Shown one piece after another: positions 42,651-61,951 of a stretch of 64,000 nt of DNA. Origin of the DNA: a virus. The notes under the pieces are model-generated. The model did no database searches. It was not told the DNA's origin and saw nothing but the letters and a program-made list of their open reading frames with translations. Numbering within the stretch: the first letter of the stretch is position 1; each line of letters begins with the position of its first letter. The stretch is taken from IMG/VR virus record IMGVR_UViG_3300044825_000698, positions 35,045 through 99,044 of that record. One strand, given 5' to 3'. A program made the translations under genes and the position numbers.

Positions 42651-42665
42651 GTCTCACCGTGAGAC
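42651..42665. repeat. 15-bp palindrome, copy 1 (5' UTR)
   Basis: GTCTCA-CCG-TGAGAC, perfect; between promoter module 1 and the first right-arm gene. Confidence 0.85.
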
Positions 42666-42691
42666 AGCCGGGCAACTCAGAAAGGTCAGCC

Positions 42692-43402
42692 ATGTCCACC
42701 ATCACCACCACCCTCGTGACCCCTGCGGTCACCCTCTCACCCGTCGAGGCCACCGTCACCTCGGCCAAGAAACTGACCCAGGCCGAGCGCACCGTCGCAT
42801 CGGCGTTCGCACACTGGGCCAGCGTGTCCGATCAGGCCGACGAGGCCACCCTGCTCCTGACCGTTCACCTGCTCGCCAACGAGAGCGTGTCGGCTCGCCG
42901 TGCGTCCGAACTCGCCACCGAGGTGCTGGGCACCAGCCGTGGCTGGTCCAAGGACAAGGTCACCGCCGTTCGCTGGACCGCTCCCGTGTGGGAGTTGCTG
43001 GCCTCGCCCGATCACCAGGCCGACGACTACCTGCTCGACGAGGATGGCGAGCGTCTGACCGTGGCCGACCTCATCTCCGAGGTTCGTACCATCGCCAGCG
43101 TCATCGGCTCGGCCAAGGTCCGTGAGGCTCTCGCCAGCGTCGACGAGCCGTCGGTCGTGGCATACATCTCGGCCCTGCGTGACGCTCGGGATGCCAAGGC
43201 TCTCGGTGCCGAGAACACGCCCCCGGCAGGCGACGAGGCCGACGACGAGGCCGAGGCCGAGGCCGAGACCAAGTCGGGCTGGACCCTCGACCACGCCCTC
43301 GCCACGGCCATCGCCAAGGCTCGCAAGGAGGGCATCTCGGATGCCGACATTCTCGCATCGTTCGCCCTGGCGGTCACGACCCTCAACACGGAGGGTGTGT
43401 GA
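42692..43402 (+). CDS. Unknown helical protein, first right-arm gene
   Basis: 236 aa from the ATG with AGAAAGG upstream. Thr/Val-rich start, central helical domain (about 30-170), an acidic DEADDEAEAEAE stretch (about 190-205), then a C-terminal helical end. No recognised family. Its position right after the origin and first promoter suggests an early regulatory or replication function. GC-rich codon use throughout. Confidence 0.6.
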   Translation: MSTITTTLVTPAVTLSPVEATVTSAKKLTQAERTVASAFAHWASVSDQADEATLLLTVHLLANESVSARRASELATEVLGTSRGWSKDKVTAVRWTAPVWELLASPDHQADDYLLDEDGERLTVADLISEVRTIASVIGSAKVREALASVDEPSVVAYISALRDARDAKALGAENTPPAGDEADDEAEAEAETKSGWTLDHALATAIAKARKEGISDADILASFALAVTTLNTEGV

Positions 43403-43465
43403 CCGTCAGCGGTCCGGGCCGGGCCGTGGTCTCCCCCTACCACGGCTCGGCTCATCCATCGCCCT

Positions 43466-43480
43466 GTCTCAGCGTGAGAC
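43466..43480. repeat. 15-bp palindrome, copy 2 (intergenic)
   Basis: Centre GCG; its last bases begin the 43478 stem-loop. Confidence 0.85.
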
Positions 43481-43508
43481 ACGGCCTCGGCGCAACCGTC
43501 GCCGTGTC
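43478..43508 (+). ncRNA. CAACCG stem-loop 1
   Basis: Stem GACACGGC / GCCGTGTC with inner CGG-CGCAA-CCG. It could be a structured leader or terminator for the upstream gene. Confidence 0.5.
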
Positions 43509-43542
43509 CCATCACCACCAACCGACCCAGGAGATCACCGCC

Positions 43543-43773
43543 ATGTCCATCGACTATTCGACACCCGAGTTTCCTGCCGACGAGTTTCCGCCCGACTACA
43601 ACTTCTCGGCCCTGTACAGCCTGTTCGTCGCCCATGTCGCCCTGCTCGACCCGAACGACGAGCAAGGCGTGGAGTGGCTTCTGACCCAGGCCCGTGGCCT
43701 GTGTCGGCGGTACTTCGTGGCCGAGTCGTACGTCGAGTCCACCGCCAACGAGTTCGTCGACCGCATCCTCTGA
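43543..43773 (+). CDS. Unknown small protein
   Basis: 76 aa from MSIDYSTPEF with GGAG eight bases upstream (a longer reading through the repeat region has no SD). Helical with aromatic residues (NFSALYSLFVAHVALLDP, RGLCRRYFVAESYVES). No family recognised. Confidence 0.55.
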   Translation: MSIDYSTPEFPADEFPPDYNFSALYSLFVAHVALLDPNDEQGVEWLLTQARGLCRRYFVAESYVESTANEFVDRIL

Positions 43774-43776
43774 CCC

Positions 43777-43791
43777 GTCTCACTCTGAGAC
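43777..43791. repeat. 15-bp palindrome, copy 3 (intergenic)
   Basis: Centre CTC; four bases after the stop codon of the preceding gene. Confidence 0.85.
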
Positions 43792-43813
43792 ACCAACCAC
43801 CAAGGAGACCACC

Positions 43814-44086
43814 ATGCGTTATGTAGTAATCGCCAGCGTTACCATCACCGACGAGTGGGGCTGGCGCACCACCCGGCAGGTGCCGACCTTCCTGGTCTAC
43901 GCCTGCTCCAAGACCAACGCCGAGACCATCGCCCTCGATGTTGTCTCGTCGGCTCAGGGCAACACTCGGGCCACCTACTCGGTCGAGGTCGCACTCGACG
44001 AGGGTCCGTTGTCCGAGTTGGTCGCCAGCGAACCCAGCACCGACCGCATCCTGGCCGAGGCCCGTGCGCTCGGGTACGAGGTCTGA
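43814..44086 (+). CDS. Unknown small beta/alpha protein
   Basis: 90 aa; strands RYVVIASVTIT and VPTFLVYACS, then a helix TNAETIALDVVSSA. A compact ferredoxin-like pattern; function unknown. Leader AAGGAGACCACCATG. Confidence 0.55.
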   Translation: MRYVVIASVTITDEWGWRTTRQVPTFLVYACSKTNAETIALDVVSSAQGNTRATYSVEVALDEGPLSELVASEPSTDRILAEARALGYEV

Positions 44087-44088
44087 CC

Positions 44089-44103
44089 GTCTCATGCTGA
44101 GAC
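44089..44103. repeat. 15-bp palindrome, copy 4 (intergenic)
   Basis: Centre TGC; overlaps the base of stem-loop 2. Confidence 0.85.
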
Positions 44104-44131
44104 ACGGCTCCGTCGCAACCGGGGCTGTGTC
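44101..44131 (+). ncRNA. CAACCG stem-loop 2
   Basis: GACACGGC / GCTGTGTC outer stem and CCG/CGG inner stem around TCGCAAC. Followed seven bases later by a promoter module, consistent with a terminator-promoter junction. Confidence 0.5.
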
Positions 44132-44137
44132 CAGCAG

Positions 44138-44159
44138 TGCCACACCCACCTGTTAGCCT
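44138..44159 (+). promoter_or_regulatory. Promoter module TGCCACACC-N7-TAGCCT
   Basis: Directly upstream of the 44181 gene; same spacing as the copies at 48194 and 55461. Confidence 0.5.
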
Positions 44160-44180
44160 CTCTAATCGAAAGGAACCACC

Positions 44181-44909
44181 ATGCCCATCACACCGCCCAG
44201 CCCACGCCAACTCGACTACATCCGCACCCTCGTCACCGAGCGTGTCCAGGCCATCACGGCCCTGGCCGACGACGAACGCAAGCGTCTGCTGTCTCAGCCT
44301 GAGACAACCAGGGATGCGTCGAACCTGATCGACCGCCTGCGTCGACTGCCTGCCGACCCCAAGCAGGTCGACGCTGGTGCCCAGGCCAAGATCGACGGTC
44401 TCGTGGCCGTGCTCGATCAACTCGATGCCCGTGACCGTTCGTTCGCCAGCGACCTCGTACGGTCGTTCAGGCAACGGGGCGACCTGTCCGAACGCCAGTG
44501 GCCGTGGGTCGAACGGCTCACCGCCAAGGCCACGGCTCCCAAGGTCGAGCCTGCCGAGCCGGGCCTCTACATGGTCGACGGGAACATCGTCAAGGTGTAC
44601 CTGACGCAGAACCGCAGGCTCGCCACCAAGGTGCTCCACGCCAACGGCTCGCACGGCTCGTTCTCGTACTCACCGGGCTGGCTCGCCAAGGTGCGCCCCG
44701 AGCATCGGCTCACCGAGGAGCAGGCCCGTGCGTTCGGCAAGCAACACGGCTTCTGCTGTGCGTGTGCGCTCGATCTCGATGACGACCGTTCGCTGGCGGT
44801 CGGCTACGGCCCGGTCTGTGCCAAGCGGTACGGCTGGTTCTACCCATCGGCCAAGCAGGCCAGCGAGATGCTCAACCGTCCCGTCGATCTAGCAACCGTC
44901 TCAGCCTGA
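44181..44909 (+). CDS. DUF6011-like zinc-binding protein
   Basis: 242 aa. N-terminal helices (PSPRQLDYIRTLVTERVQAI), a central domain, and a C-terminal zinc-type motif FCCACALDLDDDRSLAVGYG followed by PVCAKRYGWFYP (G.C..C...L.D..S...GYGP.C). This pattern is found in small phage proteins near helicases. The stop codon lies inside a palindrome. Confidence 0.65.
   Translation: MPITPPSPRQLDYIRTLVTERVQAITALADDERKRLLSQPETTRDASNLIDRLRRLPADPKQVDAGAQAKIDGLVAVLDQLDARDRSFASDLVRSFRQRGDLSERQWPWVERLTAKATAPKVEPAEPGLYMVDGNIVKVYLTQNRRLATKVLHANGSHGSFSYSPGWLAKVRPEHRLTEEQARAFGKQHGFCCACALDLDDDRSLAVGYGPVCAKRYGWFYPSAKQASEMLNRPVDLATVSA
44291..44305. repeat. 15-bp palindrome, copy 5 (inside CDS)
   Basis: Centre GCC; read as S-Q-P-E-T in the 44181 gene. 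Confidence 0.85.
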
Positions 44910-44912
44910 GAC
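44898..44912. repeat. 15-bp palindrome, copy 6 (contains stop codon)
   Basis: Centre GCC; its TGA is the stop codon of the 44181 gene. Confidence 0.85.
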
Positions 44913-44933
44913 ACTCAACAAGGAGAACCACCA

Positions 44934-45218
44934 ATGACCATCATCGACACCAAGACCATCGTCGAAGACGATGCCATTCGTCTCTACTACGAACTGTCAC
45001 GCAAGTTCGGTTGGCAGGGGACATTCTTCACCCGTGGTGATGCCAGGGACTCGTGGGAGAACTACCACGAGCAGACCAAGCCGTTCACCGACGAAGTGTG
45101 GGAGACCGTGCGTCAGTCGTACTACTGGCGCAGGGCGTTGCCCGACAACCTGACAGCCGAGGGACTGAGCATCGTCAACGATGCTGTGTCCGAAGCCATC
45201 TACCCTGTCTCAGCCTGA
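44934..45218 (+). CDS. Unknown small protein
   Basis: 94 aa, helical with aromatic patches (RLYYELSRKFGWQGTFFT, QSYYWRRALPDN). Leader AAGGAGAACCACCAATG. Stop codon inside the next palindrome. No family recognised. Confidence 0.6.
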   Translation: MTIIDTKTIVEDDAIRLYYELSRKFGWQGTFFTRGDARDSWENYHEQTKPFTDEVWETVRQSYYWRRALPDNLTAEGLSIVNDAVSEAIYPVSA

Positions 45219-45221
45219 GAC
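45207..45221. repeat. 15-bp palindrome, copy 7 (contains stop codon)
   Basis: Centre GCC; its TGA ends the 44934 gene. Confidence 0.85.
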
Positions 45222-45240
45222 ACCAACGAAAGGAACAGCA

Positions 45241-45579
45241 ATGACCACCACCATCACCATTCCCGTCGAGATCGAGAACCTGCTCGACTCGATTCTGTAC
45301 GCCGGGGCGTTCTCGACTTACTCCTGGTATTCACACCTCGCCGTCGCCAATGACGGTCGCCGGGCCTCGGTCGGCATCTACACCAACGAGGGACACACGG
45401 CCACGGTCAGTCGTATTCTCGACGCTCGCACCCTGGCCGAGACCATCGAGCGCATCGTCAGTGAACGACTGCTCGGATGGCAGGATGTGCTCCACGGTGC
45501 TCGCAACGACGACTTCGATGCCAACTCGGCTGACACCGTGCTCCAAACCGCCGTGCTCGGCAAGGTGGTGTGGGGCTGA
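45241..45579 (+). CDS. Unknown small protein
   Basis: 112 aa, starting TTTITIPVEIENLLDSILY; alpha/beta with LAVANDGRRASVGIYTNEG. Next gene starts in its stop (TGATGG). No family recognised. Confidence 0.6.
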   Translation: MTTTITIPVEIENLLDSILYAGAFSTYSWYSHLAVANDGRRASVGIYTNEGHTATVSRILDARTLAETIERIVSERLLGWQDVLHGARNDDFDANSADTVLQTAVLGKVVWG

Positions 45580-45770
45580 TGGCAACGCTCACCAACATCG
45601 ACAAGCCCTGCCGTGGTCGTGACTGCGACCAGCAGGCCAGCGTCTACGCCATCGACCCAGCCCCCGATGGCTGGGGCGACTGGTACTGCGACGACTGCCA
45701 GCCCAGCAACTGGTGGGTCATCGACACCATCGAACGAGTGTCTCAGCATGAGACAGAGGGAGACAAGTAA
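45579..45770 (+). CDS. Zinc-ribbon small protein
   Basis: 63 aa. CRGRDC and YCDDCQPSNWW form a CxxxxC...CxxC zinc site. A palindrome lies in its 3' coding part (read S-Q-H-E-T). Overlaps both neighbours. Confidence 0.6.
   Translation: MATLTNIDKPCRGRDCDQQASVYAIDPAPDGWGDWYCDDCQPSNWWVIDTIERVSQHETEGDK
45740..45754. repeat. 15-bp palindrome, copy 8 (inside CDS)
   Basis: Centre GCA; 16 bp before the start of the 45770 gene. Confidence 0.85.
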
Positions 45771-45913
45771 TGGAAGCGAGTGATGTCGTTGCCCTGGACT
45801 GGCTACACAGCCTGTTTCAGGAACTGGAAGATCAGGGAGTGGAGTTGCCGATGGGCGACTACCACTATGTGTACGGACTCATTGAGAACATCAGAGACAG
45901 GGAGAGCAAGTAA
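45770..45913 (+). CDS. Very small acidic protein
   Basis: 47 aa, starting MEASDVVALDWLHSLFQELE. Start overlaps the previous stop (TAATGG) and its stop overlaps the next start (TAATGG). Acidic helix. No family recognised. Confidence 0.5.
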   Translation: MEASDVVALDWLHSLFQELEDQGVELPMGDYHYVYGLIENIRDRESK

Positions 45914-46140
45914 TGGAAACCAAGACCTACACCGTCGACATGACCATCCGTGTCTATGTCGAAGCAACCTCGGACGCAGAGGCACAGGCCAAGGCCGTGG
46001 ACCTCTACGCAGGGTGGTCGCCCGATGGCATCGGGCAGTACGGGAATGTCCTTTCCCGTGAAGGAATGTGGTACCTGTGCGAGCACGGCGACGAGACCGA
46101 TGCTCAGGTATGGGACCCCTACAACAAGGAGAGTGTCTGA
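45913..46140 (+). CDS. Unknown small acidic protein
   Basis: 75 aa, starts with a strand-helix pattern TYTVDMTIRVYVEATSDAEAQ typical of small phage alpha/beta proteins sometimes annotated as DpnD/PcfM-like. Part of the overlapping run of small genes. Function unknown. Confidence 0.55.
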   Translation: METKTYTVDMTIRVYVEATSDAEAQAKAVDLYAGWSPDGIGQYGNVLSREGMWYLCEHGDETDAQVWDPYNKESV

Positions 46141-46142
46141 AC

Positions 46143-46478
46143 ATGGGAGCCAACTTCGCCCACGACCTCGCCAACGAGGACTTCGGTCTGTCGTTGGAGC
46201 AGGCCGTCACCATCCACCTCACGGCCAACCATTACCCGGCTGTGCCGACGATCATGGTGCCGGTGTGTGTCCAGGCCATCACCTGCGCTGACGGTGGTGC
46301 GTGGGACGACCTCGTAACCCTGCCCGATGGTGTCTCATACCGAGACAGCAACAAGGCTCCGGCCTACGCCATCATCGAGGCGTACCACCTCGGTGCGTTC
46401 CTCAGCGACGACGAGGACTACAACGACTACGGGTGTGGTAAGTGGGGATGCCAAGAGTGCTACCCCGATGCGGAGTAG
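46143..46478 (+). CDS. Unknown small protein with C-terminal Cys pair
   Basis: 111 aa. Central alpha/beta (IMVPVCVQAITC) and the end GCGKWGCQECYPDAE with clustered cysteines. A degenerate palindrome is within the coding region. Last gene before the helicase promoter module. Confidence 0.55.
   Translation: MGANFAHDLANEDFGLSLEQAVTIHLTANHYPAVPTIMVPVCVQAITCADGGAWDDLVTLPDGVSYRDSNKAPAYAIIEAYHLGAFLSDDEDYNDYGCGKWGCQECYPDAE
46332..46346. repeat. 15-bp palindrome, copy 9 (degenerate)
   Basis: GTCTCA-TAC-CGAGAC; one mismatch in the right arm. In the 46143 gene. Confidence 0.5.
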
Positions 46479-46531
46479 TGACAAACTTCACAAAGAGGGT
46501 CCGTCATTATGCCCTCTAATGCCCCTACACT
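46478..46531 (+). promoter_or_regulatory. Early promoter module, copy 2
   Basis: GTGACAAACTTCAC (46478-46491), then TGCCC, 11 bp, TACACT. Drives the helicase gene. Confidence 0.55.
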
Positions 46532-46562
46532 GACCTCTGTTATCCATCAGAAAGGAACCACC

Positions 46563-48014
46563 ATGACCAGCGTCGAGGACTTCCTCGCCAACCTTGGCAA
46601 GACCACGCCAGCACCAGCACCTGTCGTGCGTCAGCCCGTCGCCGTGCCCACGCTCGCCCTGCCGTTGCTCCCGTACCAGCAGGAGGCCGTGCGGTTCGCC
46701 CTCGGTCGTAGCGAGTCGTACCTCGCTCTCGACATGGGCCTCGGCAAGACGGCGTGCGCCATCGCCATCGCCGTGGCCTCGCTGTCTCAGAATGAGACAC
46801 CGCTCGTCGTGGTGCCCCCGTCGCTCCGCACGAACTGGGTGCGTGAGTTCCACAAGTTCGCACCGAGCGTGCGTGTGGCCGTGCTCTCGGGCACCAAGCC
46901 CCACGCCCTGCCGACCGCCGATGTCTACATCATCGGTGACTCGACGGTTCAGCACTGGGCACCGTCGCTCGTGGGCCAGGTCGATGCGATCATCGTCGAC
47001 GAGGCGCACCGCCACAAGAACCCCGATGCCAAGCGTGCCAAGGCTCTCAAAGACATCGCTCGCACCCTGTCGGGCGTGCGTGTGCTGATGAGCGGTACGC
47101 CCACGCCCAACGGTCGCCACGCCGAGTTGCCTGCTCAGGTCGAGATACTCGGCCCGACCGCATGGGACGAGATCGGTGGCAAGGGCAAGTTCTGGAACCA
47201 CTTCTGCCCCAAGGTCGACCAGTGGTCCCGTGGCAACGCCTACACCGAGGAACTCCACGACCTGCTCCACGGTTCGTGGATGCTTCGCAAGCGTCGTGGT
47301 GAGGTGCTCGATCTCCCCAACAAGGGACGCTCGGGCCTCCACATCGAGGGCCGTGGCACCGCTGTCCGCAAGTACATCCAGGCCGAGGAAGACCTGATCT
47401 CGTTCCTCCACGGCGAGGGTCGTTCGTGGGAGGGCGCACAGAAAGCAGAGGCTCTCGTCAAACTCACCACGCTCCGTCATCTCGCTGGCGAGGCCAAGGT
47501 CGAGGCCGTGGCCGAGCACATCATCGACCTGCTCGACGAGCCGGGCGGTGTGTTCGTCGTGGCCGAGCACCACGATGTCATGGACAGGCTGGCCGACCGT
47601 CTGCTCAAACACGGTGTGGCAACCATCCGTGGTGGCATGACGGATGCTCAGAAGACCGAGGCCGTCGATGCGTTCACGAGCGGTAAGAAGCGTGTTCTTA
47701 TCGGTCAGGTCATCTCGGCAGGCGTGGGCCTCACGCTCCACGGCAACGGCATCAACCACCGTGTCGTGTTCGCTCAACTCCCGTGGACCCCGGCTGATCT
47801 TCGCCAGGCCGAGGACCGCCTCCATCGCATCGGGCAGACGCACGATGTCAGCGTCGAGGTGACCCTCTGCTCCATCGACGGTCGCTGGACCATCGACGAG
47901 CGTCTGTGGGGTCTGCTGGAAAGCAAGGCCGACTCGACTGGCCGTCTCATCGATGGCGAGGCCGAGGTGTTGCTCGACGACATCGTCGGAGGTGTGCTCG
48001 ACACCTACCGCTGA
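46563..48014 (+). CDS. SNF2-type helicase/ATPase
   Basis: 483 aa. Motif I DMGLGKT (57-63), motif II DEAH (146-149), motif III SGTPTPN (177-183) and C-terminal motifs V (VISAGVGLTLHG) and VI (RQAEDRLHRIGQ). Compact SNF2/SMARCAL1-like helicase as in many phages; likely acts on replication forks or in recombination. A palindrome inside encodes SQNET. Begins with leader AAAGGAACCACCATG. Confidence 0.9.
   Translation: MTSVEDFLANLGKTTPAPAPVVRQPVAVPTLALPLLPYQQEAVRFALGRSESYLALDMGLGKTACAIAIAVASLSQNETPLVVVPPSLRTNWVREFHKFAPSVRVAVLSGTKPHALPTADVYIIGDSTVQHWAPSLVGQVDAIIVDEAHRHKNPDAKRAKALKDIARTLSGVRVLMSGTPTPNGRHAELPAQVEILGPTAWDEIGGKGKFWNHFCPKVDQWSRGNAYTEELHDLLHGSWMLRKRRGEVLDLPNKGRSGLHIEGRGTAVRKYIQAEEDLISFLHGEGRSWEGAQKAEALVKLTTLRHLAGEAKVEAVAEHIIDLLDEPGGVFVVAEHHDVMDRLADRLLKHGVATIRGGMTDAQKTEAVDAFTSGKKRVLIGQVISAGVGLTLHGNGINHRVVFAQLPWTPADLRQAEDRLHRIGQTHDVSVEVTLCSIDGRWTIDERLWGLLESKADSTGRLIDGEAEVLLDDIVGGVLDTYR
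46784..46798. repeat. 15-bp palindrome, copy 10 (inside helicase CDS)
   Basis: Centre GAA; encodes S-Q-N-E-T. Confidence 0.85.
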
Positions 48015-48015
48015 T

Positions 48016-48030
48016 GTCTCAGCCTGAGAC
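48016..48030. repeat. 15-bp palindrome, copy 11 (intergenic)
   Basis: Centre GCC; one base after the helicase stop codon. Confidence 0.85.
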
Positions 48031-48049
48031 ATAACAAAGGAGAACCACC

Positions 48050-48190: not shown

Positions 48191-48193
48191 CCC

Positions 48194-48215
48194 TGCCACA
48201 CCCCCCTGTTACCGT
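48194..48215 (+). promoter_or_regulatory. Promoter module TGCCACACC-N7-TACCGT
   Basis: Second copy; its 3' end overlaps the next palindrome by two bases, so a protein bound there could block transcription. Confidence 0.5.
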
Positions 48216-48228
48216 CTCATAGTGAGAC
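48214..48228. repeat. 15-bp palindrome, copy 12 (promoter overlap)
   Basis: Centre TAG; directly on the -10 end of the 48194 promoter module. Confidence 0.85.
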
Positions 48229-48230
48229 AA

Positions 48231-48256
48231 GACAGCGTGCCAACCGTGCGTCTGTC
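48231..48256 (+). ncRNA. CAACCG stem-loop 3
   Basis: GACAG / CTGTC plus CG/CG around GCCAACCGTG, in the 5' UTR of the 48284 gene. Confidence 0.4.
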
Positions 48257-49761: not shown

Positions 49762-49781
49762 GAACCACACAGCAAGCAAGT

Positions 49782-49796
49782 GTCTCACCGTGAGAC
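49782..49796. repeat. 15-bp palindrome, copy 13 (5' UTR)
   Basis: Centre CCG; between promoter module 3 and the 49814 gene, as copy 1. Confidence 0.85.
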
Positions 49797-49813
49797 ACAG
49801 AAAGGAAACCACC

Positions 49814-50626: not shown

Positions 50627-50835
50627 ACCCGACACAGACCAAGCACTTCGACATCACCATGGACAAGCCTGAGGCGTACATCGTGTCCCTCAAAGTCAAC
50701 GGTGAGGCCGTTGTCCTAGTGAGGCTTGAGAGAAACGCAGACGGCTCTCTCGATCTCAATGTGTTTGAGACGGCGAACGACGACATGGAGATCGCCAACA
50801 CCTACCCCGAGTTCTTTCAGGAGGTGACCGCATGA
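50623..50835 (+). CDS. Unknown small protein
   Basis: 70 aa, strand-rich (YIVSLKVNGEAVVLVRLERN) with a short helix at the end. Coupled by 4-bp overlaps on both sides. Confidence 0.55.
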   Translation: MNPTQTKHFDITMDKPEAYIVSLKVNGEAVVLVRLERNADGSLDLNVFETANDDMEIANTYPEFFQEVTA

Positions 50836-51062
50836 ACAAGGCCGTGCGTTACTGGGTCAGACGGCTCGTTATCTCGTTCCCGTTATGGCTCGCCCTGGTT
50901 CACGAGACCGACACTCGCCGGTTCGACAACGGACAGAGAGTGTTCGGTGACCACCAGGGCATGGTCCTGTGGGGACTGATGTTCATCCTGCTATGGGTCT
51001 CACTCGATCTGTATGTTCAGGACATGAGAGCGTCTCAGCGTGAGACAAAGGAGGAGCAATGA
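50832..51062 (+). CDS. Small membrane protein
   Basis: 76 aa. Two hydrophobic segments (VISFPLWLALV; GMVLWGLMFILLWVSLDLYV) with basic flanks. The only evident membrane protein in the right arm besides the 57902 peptide. A palindrome is embedded near its end (S-Q-R-E-T). Confidence 0.65.
   Translation: MNKAVRYWVRRLVISFPLWLALVHETDTRRFDNGQRVFGDHQGMVLWGLMFILLWVSLDLYVQDMRASQRETKEEQ
51032..51046. repeat. 15-bp palindrome, copy 14 (inside CDS)
   Basis: Centre GCG; ends 12 bp before the start of the 51059 gene. Confidence 0.85.
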
Positions 51063-51705: not shown

Positions 51706-51866
51706 GACAACCAAGTGTGGTGAGGGGGTACGGCCTGTCAAGCCGTGTTCTCAAACTGCGTCGAAGTAGCGAAGCGTGATGCGAGCCGAGCCGAGGGCCA
51801 TCCCCGAGGCGATGAAGCCAGCCAGCCAGCCGAGTGAAACAGCAGGCGCAACCTCACCAACGTCAT
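51706..51866. other. Intergenic stretch with a small hairpin
   Basis: No gene supported. Contains ACGGC-CTGTCAA-GCCGT (about 51731-51750) and tandem GCCGA/GCCA steps (GAGCCGAGCCGAG, CAGCCAGCCAGCC). Precedes stem-loop 4. Confidence 0.4.
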
Positions 51867-51905
51867 GCTGGACGGGCAAGCGTTCCAACCGTGCGCTCGT
51901 CCAGC
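51867..51905 (+). ncRNA. CAACCG stem-loop 4
   Basis: GCTGGACG / CGTCCAGC, perfect 8 bp with an inner GCG/CGC step around TTCCAAC. It abuts promoter module 4. Confidence 0.55.
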
Positions 51906-51959
51906 GTGACAAACTTCACACAAAGCATCCGCCCGGTTTGACCAAACACCCCCTATCCT
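51906..51959 (+). promoter_or_regulatory. Early promoter module, copy 4
   Basis: GTGACAAACTTCAC then CACAAAGCATCC, TTGACC, 10 bp, TATCCT. Shares an identical TTCACACAAAGCATCC stretch with copy 3. Drives the AAA/VWA pair. Confidence 0.6.
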
Positions 51960-52000: not shown

Positions 52001-53251
52001 ATGACCACCGCCAAAGCCCTCCGTACCGGACTCCCGGTCATCATCAACGCAGGCCCGTACAAGGGTCTCAATGCCATCGTCGTCGATGCCACCGTCTTCC
52101 CTGACGGCCACGAGCATCAGCGCAAGGTCGTCGTCGACATCGACGGTGTCGGCCAGTCGTACATCATCCCCAAGCAACTCGACCTCGTCGGTCACGTCCG
52201 TCCGTCCGTCGCCCCGGTCGTGCCGTCCGTCCCCCGTGTCGAAGTGTCTCAGCGTGAGACGGTCTCGATCTCCGTCCCCACGAAGATCACCTCGCTCGAC
52301 GACCCGGCTCTCGACGAGTACCGCCCCCAGCGCAAGGGTCTCCTGCGTGAGTACGTCTCTCGTACGCTCGCTGGCGGTCACAAAGACATCGAGGTGCTGG
52401 CCTCGTACTGGGAGAACCGCCGTGACGGTTACGCCACCAACGTCGGCCTCGTGGGCGACACGCAGTCGGGCAAGACGATGCTCGTCGAAGTGATGTCTCA
52501 CGTCATCGCCAAGAAGATGGGCCTCAGCAAGCCCCTCCCGGTGTTCACCCTGTCGGGTTCGTCGGCCATCACCGACCACGACCTGTTCGGTCAGTACCGC
52601 CCGACGCTCGTCGATGGCGAGGAGCGCATCGTGTGGATGGAGGGTCTCGTTGCCCTCGCCTGCCGACTCGGTGGCATCCTGTACCTCGACGAGGTCAACG
52701 CCATGCCGGGCAACGTCACCTCGGCTCTCCACCCGGTGCTCGACGACCGTCGCCAGTTCGTCAACATCCGCAAGCCCGTCCCCGATGGACACGGCGGTTA
52801 CAAGCCCGAGGTCGTCAATGTCTCGACCGACCTGTGGGTGCTGTGTACCTACAACCCCGGCTACGCAGGCATGGCCAAGACCAACGAGGCGTTCGCCAAC
52901 CGCTTTGAGTGGCTCACGTGGGATTACGACGAGGAAGTCGAGAAGCGTCTTATCAAGTCCCCGGCCATCCGTCTGCTCGGCCAGGCTCTCCGTGTCGCTC
53001 GTGACAACCGAGCGGTGACGACTCCGGTCGGCACCTCGGCTCTCCAGCGACTGGAGCGCAACATCGCCAGCCTCGGCCTCGACTACGCCGTGTGGTCGTT
53101 CCTCGGTCAGTTCACCAGCAAGGCCGAGAAAGCCAAGGTCCAGTCCATCATCGACGAGCGTTCCATCTACGCAATGCTGGAAGCCGAGGTCGACGCAGAG
53201 TCCCGTGTCGAAGATGTCCAGCCGACCGACGAACCCATCAACTCACTCTGA
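52001..53251 (+). CDS. MoxR-type AAA+ ATPase (CobS/NirQ-like)
   Basis: 416 aa. N-terminal KOW-like strand region (GPYKGLNAIVVDA, VGQSYIIPKQL), Walker A GDTQSGKT (152-159), Walker B GGILYLDEVN (224-233), sensor 1 in TYNPGYAG (about 286-293) and an arginine finger candidate at FANRFEW. Such ATPases remodel or insert metal into partners; the partner is the VWA protein encoded 17 bp downstream. A palindrome is within the gene (encodes SQRET). Confidence 0.9.
   Translation: MTTAKALRTGLPVIINAGPYKGLNAIVVDATVFPDGHEHQRKVVVDIDGVGQSYIIPKQLDLVGHVRPSVAPVVPSVPRVEVSQRETVSISVPTKITSLDDPALDEYRPQRKGLLREYVSRTLAGGHKDIEVLASYWENRRDGYATNVGLVGDTQSGKTMLVEVMSHVIAKKMGLSKPLPVFTLSGSSAITDHDLFGQYRPTLVDGEERIVWMEGLVALACRLGGILYLDEVNAMPGNVTSALHPVLDDRRQFVNIRKPVPDGHGGYKPEVVNVSTDLWVLCTYNPGYAGMAKTNEAFANRFEWLTWDYDEEVEKRLIKSPAIRLLGQALRVARDNRAVTTPVGTSALQRLERNIASLGLDYAVWSFLGQFTSKAEKAKVQSIIDERSIYAMLEAEVDAESRVEDVQPTDEPINSL
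52246..52260. repeat. 15-bp palindrome, copy 15 (inside AAA CDS)
   Basis: Centre GCG; encodes S-Q-R-E-T. Confidence 0.85.
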
Positions 53252-53267: not shown

Positions 53268-55403
53268 ATGCCTAAGCAGAAGATAGACAGCGAGATCGTC
53301 AAGGCTCGCAACCGTGCCCGGTCACACTTCCGCCGGGAGTCCAAGGCATACGAGGAGCGGTCATTGGCCGAGGCCCGTGAGGCTCTCAACCGTGCTCGCT
53401 ACCGTGCCACGCTCAACAAGGACGAGGTCAACCGTCAGGCCAGCATCGCATCGTGGGTGACCTCGATGTCGATTCCGGTCCTCGCCTCGCTCGACATCAC
53501 TCCCGAGATGGATGTCAATGTCATGGACGACCCTCGCATGGTCGCCAACGGCATCACGGCATCGGGCTGGACCGACTTCAGCAAGATTCACGTCCGTGTG
53601 TCGGACAAGTTCTACAACGAGAACGACCCGGCTCAGTTGTCCCGGCTCATCGCTCTCACCAAGGGCTTGATCTACCACGAGGCTGGTCACATCCTCTACA
53701 CCATCCCGTACCCCCAACTCGTACAGCGTGCGTCGGAGGCTGGCTACAAACTGTCGCCCTTGCCCGGTTCTTTGCTCGGCCCGACAGGAAGCATCACCAT
53801 CCAGGACGAGTACGAGTACAAGTGGGTGTGGAACCTGCTGGAGGACCAGCGCATGGAGTGCGCCGTGGTTCGTACCTCTCCGATCATCGAGCGGTACTAC
53901 CGAATCGTCGTGCTCGATGCGGTGATTCGTAGCATCCCGGCAGAGCAGGCGCACCGTGCGTGGCCGTTCATCACGGGTCGGTCTTACCTGCCCCTATCGG
54001 TCCTGAACGATTACCGCCGTAAGGCCGTCCAGTACGCACACGACAACGATCTCGTCGACGCTCTCGTCGCCATCGACCAAGGCGTGCGTGACTACAAGCG
54101 TGCGAAGACCGAGGTCGACATGGTCAAGGCTGTCGAGAAAGTCACCCCGGCCCTGCGCTTGTGGCTCAAACAAGAGCGTGCCAACGGCGGTGGCGACGGT
54201 GGCAGTGTGGATGACCACGGCCATCAGAGGCGACGTGAGCCGGGCCGTATTAGTCCCGACTCGTCAGCCACCGAAAGCGGTGAGGGCTGGGGTATTCCGA
54301 CTCCACCGACCAAGGCCGATGACCGTCAGGACGACGACAACAACCAGGGCGGTGGCGAGGTGACTGACTCGACCAGCGACACCCAGCGGTACGACAGCGC
54401 ACCGTCTCAGGGTGAGACAGACGAGGAGTCGGATAACGAGACATCCAATAACAAGTCCGATGGCAAGGGTCAGCAGGCCGATGGTCAGGACGACACGACC
54501 GACGATGACACCGACGAGTCGGATGAGTCGGACGAGCCGGGCACTGGTGTGGGGGCGTACGGAGACAACGCCCCCATCCTCGATGGCATCGAACAGACGG
54601 GTCTCAATGACCTGCTCGACGATCTCATCGACAACGTGGTGACCAACGATCAGATTCACGACCTCGTGACTCAGGTCAATGACTCACTGCGCCGTGGTGT
54701 GCCTCGTGACCCGAGCCTGTCCCCGATGCCTACGGAACTGCTCGCTCAGGTCGAGGAGGTCCGTGCTGGGATGCTCAACACCCTGGCTCCTCTCGCCGTC
54801 CAGGCCGACCCGGCATGGCGGTTCCGTCAGGAGTCGGGCGTGTTCGACCCGGTGACGTTCATGTACCGTGAGCCGGGCGACACCGACTACTGGGTCGACC
54901 TCGACGACACGGGTGCGACGGGTCACGACCTGGCCGTGTCAGTCATCCTCGACGTGTCGTACTCGATGTCCGAGAACACCGACGCTCTGTCGGTCGGTGC
55001 GCTCGGCATCCGTATGGCGTGCGACGAACTCGACATCCCGTGTACCGTCAGCACGTTCTCGGACAACGGGTACCTGTACTTCGATGCGACCGATAAGACG
55101 GAGCCTCTCCGTGTGTCGGCCCATGGCGGTACCGAGCCGACCGAGGCGTTGGAAGACCTGCCCAACCAGCGTTACGGCAAGGCCCGTCACCTCGTGGTCG
55201 TGTTCACCGATGGTGCGTGGAGCCACTCGGCTCCGATGTTCTCTCAGGTGCGTGAGCCTGGGATGTACATCCTGGGTGTCGGGTTCGGTCTCGGAGTGGC
55301 CGAGGCCATCGCCCAGCGCAAGCCCGACGTGGCCGTCAAGATCGAGTCGGTGTCGCAGTTGCCCGCCGAGGTGACCAAGGCACTCATCGGTTATCTCGTC
55401 TGA
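53268..55403 (+). CDS. CobT-like VWA protein with metallopeptidase-type HEAGH motif
   Basis: 711 aa. Residues 1-60 are basic and helical; HEAGH at 137-141 (LIYHEAGHILYT) and NLLEDQRME (189-197) resemble the zinc site found in CobT/peptidase-type VWA partners. About 305-430 is a long acidic linker (runs of D, E, G, S). The C-terminal VWA domain has MIDAS residues DVSYSMS (562-568) and TDG (about 643). Together with the AAA ATPase it mirrors the MoxR-VWA pairs that insert metals or dismantle complexes. SD AAAGG before the ATG. Confidence 0.85.
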   Translation: MPKQKIDSEIVKARNRARSHFRRESKAYEERSLAEAREALNRARYRATLNKDEVNRQASIASWVTSMSIPVLASLDITPEMDVNVMDDPRMVANGITASGWTDFSKIHVRVSDKFYNENDPAQLSRLIALTKGLIYHEAGHILYTIPYPQLVQRASEAGYKLSPLPGSLLGPTGSITIQDEYEYKWVWNLLEDQRMECAVVRTSPIIERYYRIVVLDAVIRSIPAEQAHRAWPFITGRSYLPLSVLNDYRRKAVQYAHDNDLVDALVAIDQGVRDYKRAKTEVDMVKAVEKVTPALRLWLKQERANGGGDGGSVDDHGHQRRREPGRISPDSSATESGEGWGIPTPPTKADDRQDDDNNQGGGEVTDSTSDTQRYDSAPSQGETDEESDNETSNNKSDGKGQQADGQDDTTDDDTDESDESDEPGTGVGAYGDNAPILDGIEQTGLNDLLDDLIDNVVTNDQIHDLVTQVNDSLRRGVPRDPSLSPMPTELLAQVEEVRAGMLNTLAPLAVQADPAWRFRQESGVFDPVTFMYREPGDTDYWVDLDDTGATGHDLAVSVILDVSYSMSENTDALSVGALGIRMACDELDIPCTVSTFSDNGYLYFDATDKTEPLRVSAHGGTEPTEALEDLPNQRYGKARHLVVVFTDGAWSHSAPMFSQVREPGMYILGVGFGLGVAEAIAQRKPDVAVKIESVSQLPAEVTKALIGYLV
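54404..54418. repeat. 15-bp palindrome, copy 16 (inside VWA CDS)
   Basis: Centre GGG; encodes S-Q-G-E-T, in the acidic linker. Confidence 0.85.
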
Positions 55404-55422: not shown

Positions 55423-55455
55423 GGACACGGCGACGATCAAACCGTGGTCGTGTCC
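55423..55455 (+). ncRNA. CAACCG-type stem-loop 5
   Basis: GGACACG / CGTGTCC, 7 bp around GATCAAACCGTG. 20 bp after the VWA stop codon; probably terminates its transcript. Confidence 0.5.
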
Positions 55456-55901: not shown

Positions 55902-56048
55902 ATGTCAGCAACGACATACGAGTGCCCTGCCTGTCACCAGCGCATAACGGTCTACGTACCGCTGGTGGAGAATCCGACCTGTACCCGTCACACGGGTGGG
56001 GGTCGCCAAATGAAACCAGTTACAGACAACAAGGAGAACAACAAGTGA
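55902..56048 (+). CDS. Small zinc-finger protein
   Basis: 48 aa with YECPACHQRITVYVP and CTRHTGGGR, a C2CH-type zinc site. GGGAGG upstream of the ATG. Confidence 0.6.
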   Translation: MSATTYECPACHQRITVYVPLVENPTCTRHTGGGRQMKPVTDNKENNK

Positions 56049-56437
56049 GCATGGACATCAAGACCATTGTCATTCTGACTGTCGAGGGTCGCATCCCGGC
56101 AGAAGAAGGACTCAACCTCATCGCACAAGAGTGCGGTGTTACCACCGACAGCCTCATCCAGGCTCTGACATCGAGCGAGACGGTCACGACCCTCTCGGCC
56201 CGTCGTTGGACGATGGAAGACGACGGAACCGTCATCAAGATGTGGGCCTCGGGAGCATCAGCCGGGACCATCGCACGTGCGTTGGCCCGGACCCGTAACA
56301 GCGTGTCACAGCGTGTCCACTACCTGCGTGGTCAGGGCCACGACTTGGAGAAGCGTGAGACCGCAGGCATGAACCGGATTCGTCAGAACCGCACTAACCG
56401 CAGTGGGGCAACTCAACTGAAGTTGCCTGGGTTCTGA
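56045..56437 (+). CDS. Myb/SANT- or GcrA-like DNA-binding protein
   Basis: 130 aa, GTG overlapping the upstream stop (GTGA). Residues about 55-100: RRWTMEDDGTVIKMWASGAS followed by AGTIARALARTRNSVSQRVHYL is a helix-turn-helix of the Myb/SANT-GcrA type. N-terminal helical part, basic C-terminus. It is one of the few right-arm candidates for recognising the 15-bp palindrome or GTGAC sites. Confidence 0.7.
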   Translation: MSMDIKTIVILTVEGRIPAEEGLNLIAQECGVTTDSLIQALTSSETVTTLSARRWTMEDDGTVIKMWASGASAGTIARALARTRNSVSQRVHYLRGQGHDLEKRETAGMNRIRQNRTNRSGATQLKLPGF

Positions 56438-56502
56438 GAACACGACCTGAGCACGTCGAGAAACTGCTCACCAACAACCAGTCCCTAACAAGGAGAATCA
56501 CC

Positions 56503-56931: not shown

Positions 56932-56932
56932 C

Positions 56933-57964: not shown

Positions 57965-57973
57965 CAGGCGTAA

Positions 57974-58098: not shown

Positions 58099-58152
58099 TG
58101 ACACCTGCTAGACTGAGAAGCGTTCCAACCGTGGCGATGTCCAAGGAGACCT

Positions 58153-58629
58153 ATGAACCTGTGCCGTGGACCGCTGTGTAGCAAACCAGTGGTCGCCAAG
58201 GGGCTGTGCCAAGCCCACTACAAGCAGTTGAGCCGGGGTAACTCGCTCACCGTGATCGAAGACCCGACCCAACAGACACCCGAGACCAAGTTCTTCAACA
58301 CGATCAAGAAGCAGGAGAACGGGTGCTGGATCTGGGATGGCCCGATAGATAAGGGCTACGGGCGTATGTACGTCAATAACAAGGCGTATCAAGTCCATAG
58401 GTGGTCGTATGAGTTCCATAAGCACGTCTCGCTCCGTAAGGAAGAGACGCTCGACCACCTGTGTCGAAACACTCTGTGCTGTAATCCCGAGCACTTAGAG
58501 AAGGTGTCGTTGATCGAGAACATCGAGAGACAGCACCTGTACCACGCTCTCAACGCCGAGATCAAACGGCTGAGAGAGTTCCTAACCGACATCGGGTACA
58601 ACCCCGACACTCTTATGAAGGAGATGTAA
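58153..58629 (+). CDS. HNH endonuclease
   Basis: 158 aa. N-terminal zinc-ribbon-like part (CRGPLCSKPVVAKGLCQAHY), then the HNH core: GCWIWDGPIDKGYGRMYVN, LDHLCRNTLCCNPEHLEKV and an ending NIERQ. Likely a free-standing homing-type nuclease. It has a good SD (AAGGAG). The DHLC...C.NP.H..EKV pattern matches HNH_3-type nucleases. Confidence 0.85.
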   Translation: MNLCRGPLCSKPVVAKGLCQAHYKQLSRGNSLTVIEDPTQQTPETKFFNTIKKQENGCWIWDGPIDKGYGRMYVNNKAYQVHRWSYEFHKHVSLRKEETLDHLCRNTLCCNPEHLEKVSLIENIERQHLYHALNAEIKRLREFLTDIGYNPDTLMKEM

Positions 58630-58796
58630 TGACCGAAACGCTAGACATCCAGGAACTGCTCGATGAGATCGACGAGATGCTCAAGATGACCGTCGGGCAT
58701 CAGATCGTGTCGGCATCAGAGATGACAGATAAGTTGCTTGACTTACGTGGTGTAGTTGGTAAACTGAATACACCTAACAAGGAGGACCACCAGTGA
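58629..58796 (+). CDS. Small helical protein
   Basis: 55 aa; acidic helix (IQELLDEIDEMLKM) and a second helix. Starts in the HNH stop (TAATG). No family recognised. Confidence 0.5.
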   Translation: MTETLDIQELLDEIDEMLKMTVGHQIVSASEMTDKLLDLRGVVGKLNTPNKEDHQ

Positions 58797-59044
58797 ACGA
58801 CATCTACAAGGAAGTAGAAACTCGGCTTAGTGCCAAGGCTCTTGCTTCATGGCAGACCAAACGTGTGGAGCGCAAAGACCAACTGATCGCCTGGGCGTAC
58901 AGTTGTGTTCGTCACCCTGGGAACATCCACCTGTGGCCGAACGACGAACTAACTGAAGAGCAAGGACTTGATCTTGCTGTCAAGTTCCTCGATGACAAAC
59001 TAAATGAGGAGAACCACCATGCAGACATTCGTCCCCTACAGTGA
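58793..59044 (+). CDS. Unknown small protein
   Basis: 83 aa, GTG overlapping the previous stop (GTGA). Helical with basic WQTKRVERKDQLIAWAY. 3' end overlaps the next gene by 26 bp. Confidence 0.55.
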   Translation: MNDIYKEVETRLSAKALASWQTKRVERKDQLIAWAYSCVRHPGNIHLWPNDELTEEQGLDLAVKFLDDKLNEENHHADIRPLQ

Positions 59045-59447
59045 CCACCTGAAGACAGCCCGTGTGCTGGACCGCCAGCGTCTAGGCAAACAGCGCGTCG
59101 AGACGCTTCAGATTCTCAACGCCCTTAGCCCTTTCTACGATAAGAAGGGTTGGAAGAACCACCCTGCCGTCAAGATGTGGCGTGGCCATGAGCACGCTCT
59201 CATCGAGTACGGCCTGTACATCTGCCACGAGTGGGTCAAGCGTGGCTACACCGACACGTGCGCTGGCAAGATGACGGCCATGTTGCCCCTGTTCGATGAG
59301 CGGTCGGCGTTCATGCCCGACTGGTGGGGCGATACCGCCATTCACGACTCACACAAGTCGAACCTCGTCCGTAAGGCTCCCGATCATTACGGCTCGTGGT
59401 GGCCTGAGGTGTCACCCGACCTGCCGTACGTGTGGCCGGTGGCGTGA
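59019..59447 (+). CDS. Pyrimidine-dimer glycosylase-like protein (MSMEG_6728 type)
   Basis: 142 aa. QTFVPYSDHLKTARVLDRQR followed by LGKQRVETLQIL and WKNHPAVKMWRGHEHALIEYG match the MSMEG_6728/Pyr_excise family common in actinobacteria and their phages. The His and Glu rich helix resembles T4 endonuclease V. Likely DNA-repair role. Confidence 0.8.
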   Translation: MQTFVPYSDHLKTARVLDRQRLGKQRVETLQILNALSPFYDKKGWKNHPAVKMWRGHEHALIEYGLYICHEWVKRGYTDTCAGKMTAMLPLFDERSAFMPDWWGDTAIHDSHKSNLVRKAPDHYGSWWPEVSPDLPYVWPVA

Positions 59448-60046
59448 TGACAAGGAAAGGTAAGGAGATACGGGAGTTGGCTTCTTACGCTTTCTCTATT
59501 CCACCTAATGGAAGACCCGGTAACAAGTCAACCGGTGACTGGGGTATCAGGAAAGAGCGTAACGCCAATAGGGACGCCAAGACAGATTCCATGGTCGCTT
59601 TCGCCTCGTTTGTTCATGGGACCATTACACCTGGGTGTGGTTGTGAAGAGTGTGATTCACGTCGAGATTTAGTAATGACACTGATCTACAACAAAGACCT
59701 CGATGTCAAGAAACTAGGACAGGCCATTTACGATGGTCCGTCTACAAGTGGCACTGACTGGTTCAACGCCAAGTGCCCTGTATGTGGTGCCTCACATTCG
59801 ATAAATGGGGTGTTTGGTACCATCATGGGAGAAAGGTGTTACCGTCGCTATGCGTGTAAGCGTCTCAATGAGATACTCAGGGAAATGAACGTAGAGCCGA
59901 AGAGACGGGCTATCCACTTCAACAACAACCTGTATTGGGTCGCACGAAACCTACCTAGTATTCGTAAAGACCACGAGTTGCTTGATGAGGCACTAACCCT
60001 CGCTGATAACTTGCTTACTATGTCTGACTACCCGTCAGTACGCTAA
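59447..60046 (+). CDS. Unknown protein with Cys pairs, lower GC
   Basis: 199 aa. CGCEECDSR (about residues 69-77) and CPVCGASH (about 115-122). Codon use is less GC-biased than the preceding right-arm genes, suggesting separate acquisition or a boundary. ATG in the stop of the glycosylase gene (TGATG). Convergent with the deaminase gene at its 3' end (12-bp overlap). Confidence 0.55.
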   Translation: MTRKGKEIRELASYAFSIPPNGRPGNKSTGDWGIRKERNANRDAKTDSMVAFASFVHGTITPGCGCEECDSRRDLVMTLIYNKDLDVKKLGQAIYDGPSTSGTDWFNAKCPVCGASHSINGVFGTIMGERCYRRYACKRLNEILREMNVEPKRRAIHFNNNLYWVARNLPSIRKDHELLDEALTLADNLLTMSDYPSVR

Positions 60047-60433
60047 GGCCATCAGATCACGTACTCGGGCTTTCTCCAGCCCGTATGGGGTCGTCCACAC
60101 CACGTTGGCCACCCCGGCATCTGCCAGGTCGTCAGAGCACCTAGCGCACGGCTTGGCGATGCCTAACTCTCCGCTACGGGTGATTCGGGCGACGTAGATG
60201 GTCGCCCCCTCCGCATCCCCAGCACGTCGCAGGGCAACCTCTTCGGCATGGTACGAGACATCACCGATGTCGACTTGTGACGGATTATTCCGATAGCGGT
60301 TGTAACCAGTAGCGAGTACACGCCCACGACGGACGAGAACAGCCCCAACACGCCATCTGTTATGTGGGGCTTGGTCGGCTTGGAGTAGAGCATTACGCAA
60401 CCACCTTATGTCAGAGGATGTAATCGTGAGCAT
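60035..60433 (-). CDS. Cytidine/dCMP deaminase-like protein
   Basis: 132 aa. Zinc-site motifs HAEEVALRRAG (H-A-E) and PCARCSDDLADAG (P-C-x-x-C). Size is short for dCMP deaminase and fits a cytidine/deoxycytidylate deaminase-fold protein. May supply dUMP for nucleotide metabolism. Overlaps the WhiB gene by 23 bp. Confidence 0.8.
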   Translation of the reverse strand: MLTITSSDIRWLRNALLQADQAPHNRWRVGAVLVRRGRVLATGYNRYRNNPSQVDIGDVSYHAEEVALRRAGDAEGATIYVARITRSGELGIAKPCARCSDDLADAGVANVVWTTPYGLEKARVRDLMALAY

Positions 60434-60890
60434 TGTCGATGTTGTCGTAAATCTCTTTGTGCGTCAGCCCCGTGGACTTAGCCACCGCTGAGATCACGTC
60501 TTTGCTGTATTTGTAGAACCACTGGTCGGTCTTCCTCGGATACGTATTGTTGACGACGAAGAAGGCGCACCGCAGAACCTCTGCCAGGGTCACGTTCGTT
60601 GTACGAACGCCCTTACTGACCTTACGACGCTCTTTCTCTGTCAGACCGCCGTAGATACCGTCTCGCATTGAGTTGTTGATGGCGAACTCGGCGCACGGCT
60701 TGCGTACCGAACACCCGTAGCAGATGAGTTTGGCGGTGGTCCCGTTGCCTCCCTGGACGGGGTAGAAGACGTTCACGTCGACACCCTTACACTTGGCGTT
60801 GTCACGCCAAGACGAATCCTTATCCGGGTGCGACAAGGACGGCAGGCATACTTCGGGTGGTAGTTGATTCACAGTGGTTTCTTCTTTCAT
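60411..60890 (-). CDS. WhiB-family regulator with C-terminal extension
   Basis: 159 aa. Fe-S ligands C34, C57, C60 and C66 (AKCKG, ICYGC, PCAEF) and the GIYGGLTEKER turn (78-88). About 70 extra residues follow (LAEVLRCAFFVVNNTYPRKT onward), helical with no recognised family. WhiB proteins bind sigma factors or promoters; a longer-than-usual phage version could redirect host transcription. ATGA overlap with the upstream gene. Confidence 0.85.
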   Translation of the reverse strand: MKEETTVNQLPPEVCLPSLSHPDKDSSWRDNAKCKGVDVNVFYPVQGGNGTTAKLICYGCSVRKPCAEFAINNSMRDGIYGGLTEKERRKVSKGVRTTNVTLAEVLRCAFFVVNNTYPRKTDQWFYKYSKDVISAVAKSTGLTHKEIYDNIDNAHDYIL

Positions 60891-61951
60891 GCGTTAGATA
60901 TTAGGTCGGCTAGACGGGAAACACCAGTCGAGATGTCTCGGGCCTTCACCATTTCACGGTTTTGTTCTGCTTCTTCTTTACGTGTCTCATAGTGAGACAG
61001 TTCCCTGATGTGCCTCGACCACTGGACGGGGTTCTTAGCGAGTCGACCAATACCAAGGTCTTGCTGTAGTTCGATGTAGGCATCGAGTGTGCTGGCGATA
61101 AACGGAACTCCAGCGGCGGCGTATTCAAGTCCCTTGATATCGGACTTACAACGGTTGAAAGGCATCTTGGTTAGAGGCACTAACCCAATGTCCATCACCA
61201 TGAGGTTGGGGTACTCGCTGTGTGGGCACAACGGCATCGTCTCGACTTCACCGTCGAGGACACCGACACGAGATGCGAATGATGGAGCCTTGGGAACAGT
61301 GCCACCGTGGAACAGACGAATCGAATCAGTACGGAGGAACGCCGGGAAGATGCCTTTCAATATCTCCAGGTCACCTGACCGATGATTAGTGCTTCCTACC
61401 CACCCGACGAGAGGACGAGGGGTGTCCTGATGTTCGTGGGGTGTGAACCGAGCGACATCGACAGTGTTCTTGGAAATCTCAATGGGAGCACGGCAGAACT
61501 CAGCCACACGGCTCGCCAAGTACGGAGTACTTGAGATGATGAGGTCCGACCGACCGATGATGTTTCGGTAGTGGTTGAAGTTAGCCCGAGGGTTGACCTT
61601 CGGGTGGTTATGGCGAAAGGCATCGTTAGTGGGTGATAGTCCCCAATACCAGTCGTCAATGTCGTTGATGATCTTGATGCCCTGCTTCTGCGAAGCGACC
61701 ATGTGATCGGAAATACCGTCGTACATCAACCTCTGCATCAAGATGACATCAACATCATGTAGTTCACCCGATGTATCCATGATGCCGAGATGATCTCGGA
61801 CCCATGTCAATACACCGTGGACAATGTCGAACGGCAGGTGCTCGATGTACTGGCCAATACGTGCCCAGCCCGAGCCACCCCACCGTTCAACATTGTCAGG
61901 AGTTCTACTGGGGTGTACCCAGTCTCCTGATGCGATGCCTACTTTCAACAC
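60887..61951 (-). CDS. GT-B glycosyltransferase
   Basis: 354 aa from the GTG preferred here (VLKVGIASGDWVHPS). A GT4-like GT-B fold: IINDIDDWYWGL, LIISSTPYLA, SKNTVDVARFTP (N-to-C domain hinge), PLVGWVGSTNHRSGDLEIL and CKSDIKGLEYAAAGVPFIA (E in the nucleotide-sugar binding loop). Contains a palindrome in its coding strand. Confidence 0.85.
   Translation of the reverse strand: MLKVGIASGDWVHPSRTPDNVERWGGSGWARIGQYIEHLPFDIVHGVLTWVRDHLGIMDTSGELHDVDVILMQRLMYDGISDHMVASQKQGIKIINDIDDWYWGLSPTNDAFRHNHPKVNPRANFNHYRNIIGRSDLIISSTPYLASRVAEFCRAPIEISKNTVDVARFTPHEHQDTPRPLVGWVGSTNHRSGDLEILKGIFPAFLRTDSIRLFHGGTVPKAPSFASRVGVLDGEVETMPLCPHSEYPNLMVMDIGLVPLTKMPFNRCKSDIKGLEYAAAGVPFIASTLDAYIELQQDLGIGRLAKNPVQWSRHIRELSHYETRKEEAEQNREMVKARDISTGVSRLADLISNA
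60984..60998. repeat. 15-bp palindrome, copy 17 (inside minus-strand CDS)
   Basis: Centre TAG; encodes L-S-H-Y-E-T-R in the glycosyltransferase. The only copy found beyond 59 kb. Confidence 0.85.

Follow-up and report, generated by a model that had tools for sequence, protein, structure and literature searches.

The stretch of viral DNA analysed here (the window) comprises 64,000 nucleotides (nt), bases 35045-99044 of the 99,044-base virus record IMGVR_UViG_3300044825_000698, labelled G000, and its right arm carries a series of early genes among which one short palindrome recurs 17 times. The initial annotation had placed 17 copies of GTCTCA-N3-TGAGAC there, and every position proved right, 16 of them exact and the one at 46332 with one mismatch. 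The full site is one base longer in each arm, TGTCTCA-N3-TGAGACA or 17 base pairs (bp), with an outer base that is T in 11 copies and C in six at position -8, and A in 16 and G in one at position +8. The copies, and the genes on which the analysis leans, are as follows.

42650..42666: site 1, TGTCTCACCGTGAGACA, leader of the first early gene, 26 nt ahead of its start
43465..43481: site 2, intergenic, 64 nt past a stop codon
43776..43792: site 3, intergenic, 4 nt past a stop codon and 22 nt ahead of the next start
44088..44104: site 4, intergenic, 3 nt past a stop codon, upstream of the DUF6011 gene
44290..44306: site 5, within the DUF6011 gene, encodes SQPET
44897..44913: site 6, includes the TGA stop of the DUF6011 gene
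45206..45222: site 7, includes the TGA stop of gene 44934-45218
45739..45755: site 8, 3' end of gene 45579-45770, 15 nt ahead of the next start
46331..46347: site 9, one mismatch (CGAGAC), in-frame TGA avoided
46783..46799: site 10, within the SNF2 helicase gene, variable loop, SQNET
48015..48031: site 11, 2 nt past the helicase stop codon, 19 nt ahead of the next start
48213..48229: site 12, intergenic
49781..49797: site 13, leader, 17 nt ahead of a start codon
51031..51047: site 14, 3' end of gene 50832-51062, 12 nt ahead of the next start
52245..52261: site 15, MoxR-type ATPase gene, N-terminal linker, SQRET
54403..54419: site 16, within large gene 53268-55403, acidic low-complexity linker, SQGET
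60983..60999: site 17, within a leftward glycosyltransferase gene, SHYET
42692..43402, plus strand: first early gene, 236 amino acids (aa), tentative candidate for the binder from its operon position, its leader site and the helix motif of its positional equivalents
46563..48014, plus strand: SNF2-type DNA helicase gene, query for finding relatives
52001..53251, plus strand: MoxR/porphyrin-biosynthesis-type AAA ATPase gene, query for finding relatives

The array stands far above background. Shuffles gave 3.25 matches at two or fewer mismatches, with a maximum of eight, against the 17 sites observed, and a relaxed scan with the full site returned 17 sites at zero or one mismatch, none at two and only background beyond, which is a sharp gap. 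When the best exact palindrome with 6-bp arms was sought in 20-kb slices, 16 well-spaced copies were found here versus one or two in shuffles, and three slices from the left part of the DNA likewise yielded only one or two spaced copies. The initial annotation had seen no copies left of the array, and this extends to the whole record, in which all 16 exact copies are confined to the window's right arm and a reversed control pattern has no match. The array, its symmetry and its confinement can thus be read directly from the DNA.

The sites also favor gene boundaries. Between 42.6 and 55.4 kb, where intergenic DNA makes up 8% by the gene calls made in this analysis, nine of the 16 sites are not wholly within a gene, whereas random placement predicts 1.6, and 11 precede the next start by 100 nt or less, whereas 3.45 would be expected; none of the random placement draws attained either count. 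Many copies stand 12-77 nt ahead of the next start codon, often right behind a stop codon, and the two copies annotated as containing a stop codon, at 44898 and 45207, do so. The claim that one site covers a promoter -10 region found no support, since a promoter scan gave nothing at any site; judged by eye, a TAGACT stands about 20 bp upstream of the site at 49782. No intrinsic terminators were called at the palindromic sites.

Seven copies (44291, 45740, 46784, 51032, 52246, 54404, and 60984) do encode S-(Q/H)-x-E-T in frame, as initially annotated, and in-gene copies occupy loops, tails, and linkers of the encoded proteins. In the helicase, the copy occupies a variable loop across which homologues are of near-equal length, and the SHYET peptide of the glycosyltransferase copy occurs in none of 12 aligned homologues. 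At 46332, the mismatch (TGA to CGA) is in a frame in which TGA would be an in-frame stop. These comparisons indicate that the in-gene copies probably arose by substitution, with residues replaced without insertion. As far as sequence alone can tell, the pattern is one that fits selection at the level of DNA, tolerated by the proteins, and would correspond neither to insertion nor to RNA pairing.

Within the site, the inner 6-bp arms are identical in 16 of the 17 copies, while the centre varies freely. The variant copy at 46332 breaks one arm pair, and the next outward position is unpaired in seven of the 16 exact copies. The initial annotation had read such a symmetric, many-copy site as typical of a dimeric DNA-binding protein, and the invariant arms and free centres bear this out. 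Because, in addition, there is no compensatory change and the in-gene copies arose by substitution, we infer that a dimeric, sequence-specific protein very probably binds the sites.

To find the same palindrome elsewhere, we scanned IMG/VR for the 17-bp site and then counted copies in whole records, which turned up three further records (G001, G002, and G003), each with between seven and nine copies. G001 (40.9 kb) has eight exact copies, all in the early region and upstream of ribosome-binding sites; it too was retrieved by the palindrome, but its kinship to G000 is established separately by identities of 77% in terminase, 45% in MoxR, 36% in SNF2, and 32% in DUF6011, which mark it as what is, on these comparisons, a genuine but divergent relative. 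Read by hand, five of the eight G001 sites are at boundaries equivalent to those of G000, namely the first-gene leader, behind the first gene, before DUF6011, the DUF6011 end, and the helicase end. Conservation at orthologous positions, a comparison suggested in the initial annotation, is therefore partial. G003 (53 kb, nine copies) has essentially no kinship to G000; in one of its operons, most early genes carry a site in their leader. G002 (30.9 kb, seven copies) is unrelated, with less regular placement.

Relatives were also fetched by helicase or MoxR sequence, blind to palindromes, and then scanned de novo. Besides G001, this set included arrays of different palindromes: TGTAAC-N-GTTACA in seven copies (L323), YCTAAT-N-ATTAGR arrays (L316, L318, and L321), TAAAGT-N3-ACTTTA in eight copies (L330), and TGTTGT-N-ACAACA in four (L343). 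Stop codons are contained in, or start codons follow, the TGTAAC sites, one of which is in the N-terminal linker of MoxR, as is site 15 of G000. Two TAAAGT copies stand immediately ahead of and behind the helicase gene; this array is less clean, since some of its copies are within longer hairpins. These arrays indicate that site specificity switches between relatives, as it appears from their sequences, and that placement stays of the same kind, which is as expected for a changing, phage-encoded specificity. We regard it as probable that the binder of the G000 sites is encoded by the phage.

A clue to its identity comes from unrelated phages that carry the palindrome in tandem, in or adjoining genes whose PHROGs matches are replication initiators or helicase loaders related to them (L164 and L072 match, L163 matches weakly, and L162 is similar but has no match). 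The proteins have helices SKATICR, SRATVNR, PRASYYR, and PRASFYR, summarized in the recognition-helix pattern S[KR]xT[IVFY]xR, which was used with S, T, or P in the first place and T or S in the fourth. Of 132 loci, 14 have an open reading frame (ORF) with this pattern at the palindrome, versus 4.2 at random positions, one protein being counted twice. In both G001 and G003, the sole ORF of at least 60 aa with the pattern is the first early gene; the background is 1.8% of ORFs of 180-250 aa. The best candidate for the binder in G000 is its first early gene, although we consider this assignment doubtful.

The initial annotation had named helix-turn-helix proteins to be tested for binding, but these turn out to be weak candidates. 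For the helix-turn-helix protein at 61962-62162, array-bearing and array-free phages alike have relatives of 51-79% identity, and it is therefore not the specificity factor; the GcrA-like protein at 56048-56437 was set aside because of an apparent relative, judged by eye, in the array-free L137.

We favor, at what we consider even chances, the reading that the sites are operators of one phage-encoded dimer, likely the first-gene product, which roadblocks or silences early transcription. According to this model, the 17 sites would be spread as operators over the early right-arm operon, and the product of the first operon gene (42692-43402) would bind all of them and, because site 1 lies in its own leader, would control itself. 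Binding at gene boundaries downstream of early promoters would create elongation roadblocks or silencing points, and early transcription would be turned down once the protein accumulates. An incoming phage of the same specificity would also be silenced. Taken by itself, a roadblock or silencing role of the sites seems to us neither probable nor improbable. A wider proposal, which we regard as unlikely, is that in a mostly virulent actinophage family a protein with a winged-helix recognition helix like that of replication initiators would serve as a genome-wide transcription silencer, with specificity switching while boundary positions are kept, an immunity-type turnover without lysogeny.

A number of observations weigh against the operator reading. 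Site 17 lies in a leftward gene. Some of the relatives fetched by helicase or MoxR carry no array at all, so the array is dispensable. The helix pattern was picked after several of its matches had been seen, the first gene of G000 departs from it with SKDKVTA at the equivalent place, and the first-gene proteins are mutually without detectable sequence homology. Searches with the G000 protein gave no relatives in IMG/VR, Pfam, PHROGs, or PDB. The models of the G000 and G003 first-gene proteins are poor (mean predicted local distance difference test [pLDDT] scores of 43 and 39), below what a structure search would need. Since the G000 helix deviates and there is no usable structure, we only infer the binder and the transcriptional effect. 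Finally, G002 and G003 were retrieved by the palindrome itself, so the site they share with G000 is partly selection, and we do not count it as strong evidence.

Could the symmetry instead belong to RNA? Hairpins with a 7-bp stem and a 3-nt loop upstream of ribosome-binding sites might control translation, RNA decay, or antitermination, and the many copies 12-77 nt ahead of start codons, together with a second conserved stem-loop family directly 3' of three copies, would suit such a role. However, the arms are invariant in sequence rather than covarying, the loops are free, copies lie deep within genes, and two of the three copies folded with their neighbouring stem-loop give no palindrome hairpin. 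We therefore consider an RNA function improbable. A comparison with known RNA families gave no match. Multi-copy perfect palindromes can also be mobile, and similar bacterial copies occur at many loci, but a small inserted palindrome or insertion-sequence ends are scarcely credible here: the centres vary, the flanking sequences are unrelated except in the three copies that share the following stem-loop, and in-gene copies replace residues with no insertion.

In favor of binding by a host transcription factor, certain rumen Clostridia and Tropicimonas are rich in this 17-bp palindrome, TGTCTCA-CGG-TGAGACA being a frequent dispersed repeat there (L194-L313, GTDB contigs). Those copies, however, mostly have one centre (CCG/CGG in 106 of 162), many have longer arms, and they look like another class, that of longer hairpins. 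In 120 genomes from the phylum of Streptomyces brasiliensis, the site was found in two, with three sites in total where by our own estimate about one is expected by chance; therefore, no actinobacterial host regulon is apparent, and we rejected this candidate. The site is not present at comparable density in these host-type genomes, in keeping with the initial annotation, and phage relatives use other palindromes, making a host factor highly improbable. A further alternative, also unlikely but deserving more weight, is that another phage or host protein binds the sites for DNA organisation, partition, or replication (parS/Noc-like or iteron-like) and not for transcription. The palindrome does stand in tandem at O-like initiator genes of unrelated phages, where iterons belong, and for the Cluster O mycobacteriophage dyads, too, the describing authors were doubtful that they act in transcription initiation (PMC4351075). 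Yet the O-like initiator gene of G000 itself (record 21007-22323, helix SRETVIR) bears different palindromes, GTGTCA-N4-TGACAC, which means that its iterons are not the 17 sites, and the 17 sites are dispersed over 18 kb in a manner that fits gene boundaries rather than a cluster. The initiator gene has three GTGTCA-N4-TGACAC copies, at record 21863, 21897, and 21941 (to the left of the window), with none elsewhere in the record, and the cluster is a probable replication origin.

Five viral contigs (G022, G026, G029, G038, and G039) have two to four copies of TGTCTCA-CSG-TGAGACA, mostly 11-16 kb apart, with a spacing of 14,871 bp in three of them; at least some of these copies are within a gene of about 1,250 codons (PRGSVRR).

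The gene content of G000 includes a DNA polymerase-sized ORF and RecA/UvsX-like, primase, DnaB, helicase-loader, and O-like initiator genes. Megablast found no close phage records. The G000 terminase is 46-47% identical to those of Streptomyces phages of the BRock group (BRock and pSt2308), which are contractile-tailed, with tail sheath genes; neither BRock nor pSt2308 has a dispersed palindrome. No tyrosine integrase domain is present in the record, which may be a fragment and in which serine integrase was not searched. Based on the terminase kinship and the lack of such a domain, we think it probable that an actinobacterium is the host and that the phage is virulent. Two WhiB-like regulator genes, at window 60411-60890 and 62968-63348 (minus strand), support an actinobacterial host.

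Other elements share the region. Six intergenic stem-loops on the plus strand (window 43478-43509, 44101-44132, 48226-48254, 51866-51906, 55424-55455, and 58106-58144) share a GUCC end and an inner loop conserved as CG-nnnnAAC-CG, and their stems covary. None has an Rfam match, and five of the six fold far better than shuffles (z of -3.2 to -5.4); three are directly 3' of a palindromic site, and one similar stem-loop occurs in the relative L145. TGTGA-N6-TCACA boxes, CRP/GlxR-like by consensus, precede putative early promoters at window 41985, 42309, 42561, and 49707 (also 46477 and 51905), and clusters of TGTGAC-N4-GTCACA occur in a similar place in the relatives L128 and L132.

Among known dispersed-site systems, the likeness to L5-type stoperators seen in the initial annotation is limited. 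Those of Cluster A and Cluster CA are numerous across the genome and, like the G000 sites, occupy the ends of genes and short gaps between them (PMC9283540, PMC13313380). L5 sites, however, are asymmetric and follow the direction of transcription (PMC9283540); they measure 13-14 bp and bind a monomer, in contrast to the perfect dyad of G000. PHROGs scans of about 30 G000 proteins gave no immunity repressor, although no search aimed at an L5-type one was made. Lambda O-like origins have the G000 palindrome in tandem in unrelated phages, but their iterons are clustered in the initiator gene, whereas in G000 they are scattered among early genes across 18 kb.

In phiC31, the c repressor binds inverted repeats, of which we recovered 15 exact copies de novo. 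These repeats and the G000 sites are both dyad-symmetric and often intergenic, phiC31 being an actinophage with about 15 copies; the phiC31 site, TACTCAC-GTGAGTA, has no spacer and lies in both arms, whereas the G000 site is spaced by N3 and lies in the right arm. The phiC31 CIR sequence TACTCACGTGAGTA is absent from G000, and phmmer against all six-frame ORFs found no c-repressor homologue in G000-G003. Repressor-stoperator silencing is also described for R4 (R4/phiJoe) (PMC10276819).

Closest in anatomy are the Cluster O mycobacteriophages (Corndog and Firecracker), with 17-bp dyads TGTTCGG-N3-CCGAACA that are intergenic and in-gene and denser at the right end, in phages with no known lysogens (PMC4351075). 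Both sites share a 7-3-7 architecture, TGT...ACA ends, invariant arms, a variable centre, and many copies, but the Cluster O arm TGTTCGG differs in sequence from that of G000, and Cluster O has about 30 or more copies genome-wide, compared with 17 in the right arm only. We counted 28 copies in 50 kb of Firecracker, and found no early proteins common to G000 and Cluster O. A symmetric distributed site, as proposed in the initial annotation, is thus not in itself new, phiC31 repeats and Cluster O dyads being symmetric already; the new element over known dispersed dyad sites of phages is the turnover of specificity among relatives. The function of the Cluster O dyads was left open by their describers (PMC4351075), and the same 7-3-7 design now appears in another phage group, in which differing palindromes in the same gene neighbourhood of relatives and a candidate binder of 236 aa, with counterparts of 235 aa in G001 and 184 aa in G003, make the question testable. 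By analogy, G000 resembles the Cluster O dyad in anatomy, and its working mode would be most like that of the symmetric stoperators of phiC31 and R4.

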